This document shows positions 52,264 through 54,345 of a stretch of 64,000 bases of DNA, piece by piece. Location: NCBI RefSeq assembly GCF_900170025.1, contig NZ_FWEX01000005.1, positions 419,073-483,072 on the forward strand, given 5' to 3'. Origin of the DNA: Nitrospira sp. ND1. GTDB lineage: Bacteria > Nitrospirota > Nitrospiria > Nitrospirales > Nitrospiraceae. The position numbers were made by a program, and so were the translations under genes. Numbering within the stretch: position 1 is the first letter of the stretch; every line of letters begins with the position of its first letter. The notes under the pieces are model-generated. The model was not told where the DNA came from. It worked only from the letters and a program-made list of their open reading frames with translations, and ran no database searches.

Positions 52264-53469
52264 ATGGCCACACTGGAACCGGAACAGACGTTCATTACCT
52301 CCGACGATGCACTCGATGCCCTCTGTGATCAACTCCTCAACAGTTCGGTCATTGCCATCGATACCGAGTTTATGGGGGAGGAGCATTTCATCCCCCGCCT
52401 GGAGTTGATCCAGGTCGCAGCGGAAGGGGTGGCGGCGGTCATCGACTTCCCGGCCGTGCAAGAGACCGCGCCAATGGCCCGATTCTGGGAGCTTGTCTGC
52501 GATGCCCGCATTGAAAAAGTGCTGCATGCGGGACGGCAGGACCTGGAACTGTTTGCGCACCATGCCGGACGTCTGCCGAAGCCGTTTTTCGATACGCAAA
52601 TCGCCGCCGCCATGGTCGGCTACGGCGCGCAGACCGCCTATGCCAACCTGGTCCAGCGCGTCCAGGGTGTGAAACTCGACAAGGCCCATACGTTTACGAA
52701 TTGGAGCCAGCGGCCGCTGAGCCGGGAGCAGCTGATTTATGCCCTGGATGACGTGACCTTTCTGCTCCCGGTGCATCAGCATCTCCGGCAGAAATTATCC
52801 GTGATGGGTCGCTCGGAGTGGGTGGACGAGGAATTTGCCCGCTTGGAGGTCTCTCTCGGCGCGCAGGCGCGGGACCCGCTGGAGCGATATCAACGAATCC
52901 GTGGATGGGATAGCCTCAAACCACGCGCGGCCGGCGTCCTGCGCGACCTTGCAGCCTGGCGTGAAGGGGAGGCCCGGCGTCGCAACGTCCCGCGAGGACG
53001 AGTGATGCGTGACGAGGTGCTGGTGCAACTGGCCCGTCAAACACCGCGCACACTGGATCAATTGCGCGGCATGCGGGGGATGTATTCGTCGGAAGTCGAA
53101 CGGAACGGACAGGCGCTTCTCGCCACCATGCAGCAGGCGTTGGCGCGACCGGAATCCGAATGGCCCGAGGTCCCGCGCGATCGCAAACCGGATCCCGAGT
53201 CCACCGGCGTGCTGGAGCTGCTGCAGGCTGTGCTGAAGTCTCGTGCCTCCGTGGAGAACATTGCCCCGACGTTGATCGCCACCACCGGTGACTTGCAGGC
53301 CCTGGTCGAACGCGCCTCGCCGGTGGAGGAGATGGACATTCCCGTGTTGCGGGGATGGCGGCGGCAACTGGTCGGAGAAACACTCCTCAGCGTCTTATCC
53401 GGCGATCTGAAGGTGTGGATCGACCCACAACTCGGCAAACTCCGCTTCGGCCATCTCGATCACGCGTAA
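52264..53469 (+). CDS. rnd: Ribonuclease D
   Basis: A 401-residue protein. The N-terminal exonuclease domain has the DEDD residues: IAIDTEFMGE near residue 35, LHAGRQDLELF near residue 92 and YALDDVTFLLPV near residue 161. One or two HRDC domains follow (RAAGVLRDLAAWREGEARRRNVPRGRV near residue 225). It trims the 3' ends of stable RNAs such as tRNA. Probably coupled with the J-domain gene. Confidence 0.9.
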   Translation: MATLEPEQTFITSDDALDALCDQLLNSSVIAIDTEFMGEEHFIPRLELIQVAAEGVAAVIDFPAVQETAPMARFWELVCDARIEKVLHAGRQDLELFAHHAGRLPKPFFDTQIAAAMVGYGAQTAYANLVQRVQGVKLDKAHTFTNWSQRPLSREQLIYALDDVTFLLPVHQHLRQKLSVMGRSEWVDEEFARLEVSLGAQARDPLERYQRIRGWDSLKPRAAGVLRDLAAWREGEARRRNVPRGRVMRDEVLVQLARQTPRTLDQLRGMRGMYSSEVERNGQALLATMQQALARPESEWPEVPRDRKPDPESTGVLELLQAVLKSRASVENIAPTLIATTGDLQALVERASPVEEMDIPVLRGWRRQLVGETLLSVLSGDLKVWIDPQLGKLRFGHLDHA

Positions 53470-53480
53470 CCTCCGCCGTC

Positions 53481-53674
53481 TAGCACGCATTCTTCATGAG
53501 CACTTCTGCTGCAATCGCGGATTCGCTGCTACTACGCGCCTTCGGCTGGCAGGCTCGCCGCTCGGTCCCTCGACGTACTGTTCAAGTACGCCTCGGTCCC
53601 TCACAGCTCCGCATGCCCGTCTCGCAACGCGACTGCGCGATTTCCCGACGAACTGTCATGAGGAATGCGAGCTA
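53481..53674. repeat. 194-bp palindromic intergenic element with 19-bp terminal inverted repeats
   Basis: The ends TAGCACGCATTCTTCATGA (left) and TCATGAGGAATGCGAGCTA (right) are inverted with two mismatches. Inside are nested inverted repeats (AATCGCG at 53513, CGCGATT at 53636), a duplicated CTCGGTCCCTC and a central GTACT/AGTAC hairpin. The element fills the space between convergent genes, and its right end supplies the stop codon of the gene at 53672. It looks like a MITE- or REP-type repeat. Confidence 0.65.
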
Positions 53675-53914
53675 GCGCGTCGCGCCTCGCGTGGCTTGAG
53701 CGCGGCTCTGAGTCCGACGCTCTTTCCACAACCCCAGCAACAACGTCAGCAACGCCAGGCCGATTTCGTCGGCCAGCGGGATCACGTCCGGCACAATGAT
53801 GTCCGCCAGGGTGAGGAGGGCGAACATCACGAAGAGAGACGGAAAGCGAAGGTTGAGCCGCTGCAGAATCCTTCCGAGCAGCGACACGCGATCAACGGAA
53901 CTGAATGCGAACAT
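53672..53914 (-). CDS. Small membrane protein (possibly DUF6116-like)
   Basis: An 80-residue protein with two hydrophobic segments (LFVMFALLTLADIIVPD and EIGLALLTLLLGLW) and a basic tail. The pattern with PDVIPLADE between the helices recalls the DUF6116 type; that assignment is from memory. The stop codon lies in the inverted-repeat element, so the last few residues may be element-derived. Confidence 0.6.
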   Translation of the reverse strand: MFAFSSVDRVSLLGRILQRLNLRFPSLFVMFALLTLADIIVPDVIPLADEIGLALLTLLLGLWKERRTQSRAQATRGATR

Positions 53915-53994
53915 AAGTCCGGCCCTCCGTCATCCCCCCCGGCGCCTCCACAACTGGGTCTACAGATGCGCTCGGTTCAGCGTTCCTTGGAAGC

Positions 53995-54345
53995 TCACAG
54001 CATTTGAGTGATCGTGTCCGCCGGGCGCGCCAGCATGGCCTTGTCGCCTTTTTCGACCAGCGGACGCTGGATCAAATCCGGATGCAGAACCATCAGGTCG
54101 AGCACATGGTCCTCGCTCAGCGCCGGGTCGGATAGCTTCAGCGACTTGTAGAGATCTTCCTTCGTCCGTAAGACCTCACGCGCCGTCAGTCCGGCTTTCT
54201 TCAGCAGGGCCTTGAGCCGGCTCTTCGTGAAGGGTTGCTCATAATAATTGATCGCCTTGAACGGTTGCCCGCTTTCGCGCACAATCCGGACGGCCTCGCG
54301 ACACGTTGAACAAGTGGGCTTCTGATAAATCGTGATCTCCGCCAT
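53995..54345 (-). CDS. arsC: ArsC/Spx-family thioredoxin-fold protein (arsenate reductase-like)
   Basis: A 116-residue protein. The start is at MAEITIYQKPTCSTC behind a GGAGAG site. The N-terminus has the catalytic Cys motif PTCSTCREA near residue 10 and the domain has the family end LIQRPLVEKGDKAML. ArsC reduces arsenate using glutaredoxin; Spx-like relatives are regulators. No ars operon genes are near, so arsenate reductase activity is inferred. Confidence 0.78.
   Translation of the reverse strand: MAEITIYQKPTCSTCREAVRIVRESGQPFKAINYYEQPFTKSRLKALLKKAGLTAREVLRTKEDLYKSLKLSDPALSEDHVLDLMVLHPDLIQRPLVEKGDKAMLARPADTITQML

Follow-up and report, generated by a model that had tools for sequence, protein, structure and literature searches.

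The question raised by this locus is what the palindromic sequence between two convergent genes of Nitrospira sp. ND1 is, how it came to be there and whether its interior has a role of its own. The whole stretch of DNA analysed, 64,000 nucleotides, is referred to here as the window. The initial annotation had described a 194-bp palindrome with 19-bp inverted ends and had seen in it either a non-autonomous MITE or a large REP element inserted into a gene end. The inverted ends are indeed present, TAGCACGCATTCTTCATGA (53481-53499) facing TCATGAGGAATGCGAGCTA (53656-53674) with two mismatches. Across copies, the outermost CTAG acts as a 4-bp target duplication, leaving an element body of 188 bp (53484..53671) and terminal inverted repeats of 16 bp, the left one at 53484..53499 on the plus strand (family consensus CCCGCATTATTCATGA) and the right one at 53656..53671 on the minus strand, with ends conserved across copies. 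A covariance model (R1) places the body on the minus strand, the one that folds as the conserved hairpin. R1 scores this copy, which is among its own training sequences, at 188.4 bits on the minus strand and 26.3 bits on the plus strand. The neighbours are an RNase D-like gene with 3'-5' exonuclease and HRDC domains (52264..53469, plus strand; Pfam PF01612 and PF00570) and, convergent with it, a gene for an 80-aa DUF6116 protein (53672..53914, minus strand; Pfam PF19611, E 4.5e-12) whose end lies in the target duplication.

The nested inverted repeats had been said to fold the whole element, and the family does fold as one long interrupted hairpin. Two occurrences of CTCGGTCCCTC, at 53561..53571 and 53592..53602 of the plus strand, form the opposite arms of an inner helix with covarying pairs. 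The doubling of this sequence, also noted at the outset, is real in the window copy but is not a feature of the family, since among 136 copies it is found only in this one and its orthologue in genome G028. The apical stem-loop (53574..53590, minus strand) reads CGTACT-loop-AGTACG on the plus strand and is a strongly conserved part of the interior; in other copies its stem is CATCCT/AGGATG or CAACCT/AGGTTG. A generic repeat finder reported nothing at the element. Folded as RNA, the plus strand of 53475-53680 reached -78.8 kcal/mol (z -2.33), a value matched by 1 of 200 shuffles; folded as DNA it reached -40.9 (z -1.50), which does not stand out clearly, since 14 of 200 shuffles did as well. 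For the body alone the minus strand gave -87.7 kcal/mol versus -68.3 for the plus strand. None of the reading frames was open in all of 53 copies, the best one being open in 29. The element is therefore short and devoid of a transposase gene, as expected of a MITE.

The element is neither unique in its genome nor absent from relatives. A search of the own genome gave 30 matches at E up to 1 (window copy included), and 13 other near full-length copies (L002-L014) were 78-84% identical with E values from 1.7e-55 to 2.4e-38, so that the observation is not due to chance. The terminal repeats, allowing up to 3 mismatches, were found at 51 forward and 51 reverse sites (none on either strand for the reversed control), which bears out that the ends are common to dispersed copies. 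Within the genus, 27 of 29 genomes, the own one counted, had a match at E 1e-5. An exact 20-mer occurred in at least 120 genome-contig stretches labelled Nitrospira and many other groups, and paired terminal repeats in the fetched loci were mostly 120-250 bp apart. The own genome also carries a second group of copies that are 173 bp long, have a similar hairpin and bear the ends CCCGGATTATTCATGA (e.g. L031:1032-1204 and L054:1505-1677); the copy in L031 lies about 120 bp from a 189-bp copy (L031:1328-1516). In Nitrospira sp. UW-LDO-01 there are elements of about 350 bp with two tandem matches to the hairpin model within one pair of ends (L167:1978-2327 and L175:5951-6309). Elsewhere in the window, 54838-54957 matches the hairpin model weakly on the plus strand (23.2 bits, E 0.00024), a level attainable by palindromes alone, and may be a remnant or a chance match. 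Plasmid and phage collections gave no match by blastn. Among viral contigs, the apical pattern was found in two and the 20-mer in one; model matches were weak in L335 and L336, and the hairpin model found nothing in L334. One IMG/VR viral contig has a pair of exact terminal 20-mers (L336:801-1044) with weak model matches on both strands, possibly because a virus carries it or because the contig is mis-assigned.

Insertion left a clear signature. In 136 distinct elements (26 from the own genome, which are not all its copies, and some orthologous to each other), the left and right flanking bases agreed in 113-117 cases at each of four positions, and at the six positions to either side of these, in the same register, in only 22-49. 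The target duplication is thus sharp and 4 bp long. A 2-bp TA duplication was considered and rejected because the agreement spans four positions and then stops sharply on both sides. Identical left and right 4-mers were present in 76 of the 136 (shuffled mean 59.0, maximum 70). When the left 4-mer was not palindromic (n=42), nine were repeated directly (shuffled mean 2.4, maximum 8) and none inverted. The commonest pair of flanks was CTAG/CTAG (63 of 136), the target follows the pattern YTAR, and TTAA is among the targets seen. In the window the two copies of CTAG, which have no strand, are at 53480..53483 and 53672..53675.

Empty sites were found in two relatives, G012 and G001, that lack the element in the same interval between the RNase D-like and DUF6116 genes. 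The joined flanks of the window align with each of them over 304 nt at 91% identity and 0 gaps, and where filled sites have CTAG both empty sites read CTAC. In G028 the element is at the orthologous place, and a second copy, 97% identical to it, lies in unrelated flanks. These genomes also settle what the insertion did to the neighbouring gene. The element had been credited with providing the stop codon of this gene, and in position that is so, the TAG being at 53672-53674 on the minus strand. However, this TAG belongs to the target and is present in the empty sites, and the DUF6116 protein has 80 aa and the same stop position in all four genomes, filled or empty, which means that the insertion did not create the stop codon. 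The description of an insertion into a gene end is thus right as to location, although nothing was truncated or supplied, the length and stop of DUF6116 being the same in both relatives with empty sites. Since CTAG carries TAG on both strands and is duplicated upon insertion, such insertions keep the gene whole. An ORF of at least 100 codons stopped on the duplication in 45 of 119 elements (those of the 136 that had 400 bases of flank), compared with 74 of 322 CTAG sites in the same loci, an odds ratio of 2.0 with a p value (0.0025) that is only approximate because orthologous copies are not independent. For comparison, YTAR sites of these loci gave 266 of 1339, and CTAG sites of the window 7 of 42.

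As for what moves an element without genes, the ends point to the IS1380 family. Locus L192 has a 1.7-kb element with an IS1380-type transposase (PF13701, E 1.3e-128) and flanks that differ by one base. A further 25 loci matching PF13701 (L239-L253 and L324-L333) were inspected for such ends, and five had both of them together with YTAR flanks: L240, L241, L248 and L324, with identical flanks, and L251, where CTAA and TTAG are in inverted and not direct repetition. The other 20 lacked both ends together, some having one end and several being fragments; L243-L245 and L327 are long PF13701 matches without such ends. Compared with CCCGCATTATTCATGA, the IS1380 ends had 0-3 mismatches at the better 16-bp end and up to 4 at the other. 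The ends and the duplication length of our element therefore match those of IS1380 elements, as in an IS1380-derived MITE, and from this likeness we infer that it is likely mobilised in trans by an IS1380-type transposase. The interior does not appear to be a deletion derivative of IS1380, as the hairpin models found nothing inside the elements of L240, L241, L248, L251, L192 and L324, the model matches in L240 and L192 falling outside the IS. PF13701 was above the cut-off in 7 of the 29 genus genomes, and 7 of 15 genomes bearing copies had no PF13701 match, several of these being fragmented drafts. In the own genome no intact IS1380 transposase was found, only a PF13701 fragment below the cut-off (23.8 bits), so the window copy may be stranded at present.

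The interior is the less ordinary part. When copies from Nitrospira and from other groups were aligned, the apical hairpin was common to them with the bases of its stem exchanged. In the first alignment (A1, plus orientation; 55 of 56 listed copies, L088 left out), the consensus fold was -28.1 in the plus-strand orientation and -62.4 on the reverse strand, and for this reason the analysis was continued on the latter. In a second one (A2, 53 sequences hand-picked from the 136 elements), RIBOSUM scoring gave -146.0 for the chosen strand versus -132.9 for the other, which is not far behind. The A2 structure has 70 pairs with 91.9% of cells paired. Two-sided changes were found in 276 cells, compared with 65-98 when the structure was slid along the alignment, except for one slide with 48. 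The number of pairs with at least one two-sided change does not discriminate by itself, since it was 45 against 23-41 for the slid structures and a slide of one column still gave 41; the cells and the covariation score do. A third alignment (A5) comprised 24 matches from 23 hand-picked loci of diverse genomes, fitted to the model and including R1 training copies. Here 90.8% of cells were paired, two-sided changes were found in 335 cells (64-94 slid) and in 60 of the 70 pairs (32-34 slid). In covariation shuffles of A2 and A5, 0 of 500 reached any of five measures. Covariation was measured on the same sequences from which the structures had been predicted or to which they had been aligned; within that frame the compensatory changes exceed chance, as expected of a functional structured RNA.

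Conservation is not restricted to pairs. Five unpaired bases, at A5 columns 30, 31, 89, 103 and 113, are invariant in all 24 copies, although on average the unpaired columns of the interior are no more conserved than the paired ones (66% vs 64%). In L313, L317, L318 and L319 the ends are unlike those of the window copy, yet pairing and loops are kept. Rfam 15 gave no match up to E 1 in 53000-54200 of the window and none at gathering threshold in six loci, and a simple scan found no promoter-like site and, within the element, no intrinsic terminator.

Related interiors are found well beyond Nitrospira. To avoid training leakage, a second model (R2) was built from 38 copies of the genus genomes and of records labelled Nitrospira, Nitrospiraceae, Nitrospirae or Nitrospirota, and applied to 25 loci of 19 other genomes, all of which had been fetched because R1 found them. 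It recovered 22 of these loci (17 of the genomes) with sense-strand scores of 43-97 bits, while those listed for the opposite strand were 23-43; two Wenzhouxiangella loci reached only 31 and 33 bits, and L265 had no match. The mixed model R1 matched 12 of 15 genomes chosen through their terminal repeats at E 0.001. The wrong strand of a true copy may by itself score up to 56 bits, and weak matches were for this reason not taken as a shared interior. Ten of the 15 remain when the sense score must clearly exceed this level, labelled as Gammaproteobacteria (including Lysobacterales and Lysobacteraceae), Deltaproteobacteria, Acidobacteriota, Binatota, Eisenbacteria and Myxococcota. Wenzhouxiangella (G037) and a Thermodesulfobacteriota record (G038) passed E 0.001 but were not counted. 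Wenzhouxiangella sp. XN79A has 161-bp elements (L139, L142 and L183) with similar ends and an interior not clearly recognised by the model, as if different interiors used the same kind of ends. In genomes drawn by kinship alone, 39 of 148 from the own phylum matched at E 0.001. Of these, 32 reached 1e-12 or better; the best E values of the other seven were weaker, and these were not taken as sharing the interior. At 1e-12 the counts were 17 of 151 for the order of G030, three of them known beforehand, and 3 of 99 for the phylum of G035, itself included. G349, which bears L324, has 15 places among the matches listed, all on one large contig (C1, 4,236,551 bases of a 4.2 Mb genome), so a binning error is unlikely for this genome.

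One strand of the interior stands out from the other. The better fold belongs to the same strand, the minus strand for the window copy, in 57 of 58 members of the 188-bp family, in 9 of 10 of the 172-173-bp group and in 23 of 26 of the 200-260-bp group. Size groups of 209 bp and of 121-134 bp were recognised as well. In a fold predicted with G.U pairs forbidden, G.U exceeded A.C outside the ends at 32 pairs and the reverse held at 12 (p 0.0037), with 141 versus 43 cells. A second count of cells outside the ends gave 128 versus 31. Restricting the comparison to pairs common to the folds of both strands left the excess at 23 versus 10 outside the ends (p 0.035) and at 27 versus 16 with the ends included (p 0.13). 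All these p values are approximate, the sequences being related. In the other strand's own predicted structure the cells were near parity (152 vs 141), and at two positions a common wobble would fall on that strand. Two wobbles are nearly fixed, U.G at one pair (52 of 53 sequences) and G.U at another (46 of 53). A mutation process biased by strand is an unlikely cause, since copies show almost no preference in their orientation relative to genes (for members of the 188-bp family, the upstream neighbour was on the same strand in 20 cases and on the opposite one in 25, with 31 elements that overlap an ORF call set aside). In the alignments and models used here, the G.U excess on one strand and the five invariant unpaired bases suggest selection on RNA.

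The evidence as a whole favours the MITE of the initial annotation over its large REP element: copies sharing conserved ends are scattered in large number, the target is duplicated over 4 bp, and two relatives have the site empty. REPs are short sequences that carry GTAG and do not duplicate their target. A REP or REPIN moved by a RAYT (Y1) transposase would share with our element its palindromic form and its many copies per genome; a length of 188 bp, a 4-bp target duplication, gap-free empty sites and ends resembling those of the DDE insertion sequences of the IS1380 family make this origin extremely improbable. We also regard as improbable, if less so, a host regulatory element (a terminator or a stabiliser of mRNA 3' ends) that spread because it is useful at gene ends. 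The excess of stop codons on the duplication agrees with it, but this excess is only about twofold and would follow if an element landing on a TAG stop inside CTAG does no harm, and a regulator fits poorly with the near-random orientation, the lack of an intrinsic terminator in the element by a simple scan, and the fact that close relatives differ in its presence at the same site.

A more serious competitor accepts an ordinary MITE and denies the RNA any role, the arms being kept matched by DNA processes, either template-switch correction of quasi-palindromes or gene conversion between copies. Paired changes do extend into the terminal repeats, where U-A became G-C at A1 columns 8/192 in 4 of 55 sequences, as copying from arm to arm predicts, and the loss of significance of the G.U excess among common pairs once the ends are included is in its favour too. 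Such copying should nevertheless treat both strands alike, in conflict with the one-sided excess of G.U over A.C outside the ends; it should not spare wobbles kept in nearly all sequences, and it would presumably erase conserved mismatches, in conflict with the five unpaired bases that never vary in diverse copies. We judge it rather unlikely for these reasons. A non-autonomous MITE moved in trans by an IS1380-family transposase, with an interior most likely selected as RNA, is in our opinion the probable explanation, the last part because copies across genomes change in sequence and yet keep their pairing and certain loop bases.

For this MITE with a selected interior the following mechanism can be proposed. 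A DDE transposase of the IS1380 family would recognise ends like CCCGCATTATTCATGA and move the element in trans, inserting it into YTAR, mostly CTAG, with duplication of the 4 bp. On one strand the interior between the ends would fold into one long hairpin whose set of internal loops is fixed. We infer that the RNA would arise when transcription runs through the interior on that strand, and that selection would act on this RNA. Its job can only be guessed at; a host RNA protein might for instance bind or process it, with the effect that the host tolerates the element or the transcript flanking it. Going further, it is conceivable, and we put it forward tentatively, that the interior specifies a structured RNA not described before, one that serves as a functional part of a mobile element across several phyla and helps its persistence or movement. 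Under this RNA reading, an element free of proteins might have preserved the fold of its RNA despite divergence of its sequence and even of its ends, which we likewise offer as a possibility somewhat short of an even chance. MITEs are usually viewed as defective remnants whose interior drifts freely, whereas here the interior is conserved, and in hosts labelled as different phyla, within an element that is too small, and too often broken by stop codons, to encode a common protein. Should the RNA exist, what a gene-less mobile element needs it for becomes a testable question. The results also draw attention to numerous repeats in environmental genomes, those of Nitrospira among them, and the CTAG target illustrates how an element can settle on a stop codon without harm to the gene.

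MITEs are a known kind of element; what has no counterpart in the stretches compared with Rfam or in the literature searched is a conserved, strand-specific hairpin interior. In the open-access literature we found no paper for the end sequences and no match for this interior, and the passages returned for Nitrospira and miniature inverted repeats concerned MITEs in dioxane-degradation contigs, not tied there to Nitrospira. Among known systems, ERIC sequences (RU-1 being the same unit) have ends and hosts that differ from those of our element, and Correia elements differ from it in target, ends and host range. ERIC sequences of enterobacteria and vibrios resemble our element in being a MITE that reaches tens to hundreds of copies in a genome, in two bacterial families according to a passage in PMC10969869, and RU-1 is given as 127 bp long in the abstract of PMC2759123. 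In contrast, the element described here has a 4-bp YTAR duplication, IS1380-like ends and an interior found in records labelled as several phyla. Correia elements of Neisseria are likewise MITEs whose transcript folds; PMC10969869 states that RNase III cleaves this transcript at the terminal repeats and that MITE transcripts in general fold into stable stem-loops. IS1380 transposases are termed, in a passage of PMC10140906, prokaryotic transposases distantly related to piggyBac. IS1380-family elements share with ours similar 16-bp ends and YTAR flanks and differ in their length of about 1.7 kb, in having a transposase gene and, in those examined, in the lack of the hairpin interior. PiggyBac itself is eukaryotic and has TTAA as its target, which some of our copies share, although the target of the element is mostly CTAG and the link is by analogy only.
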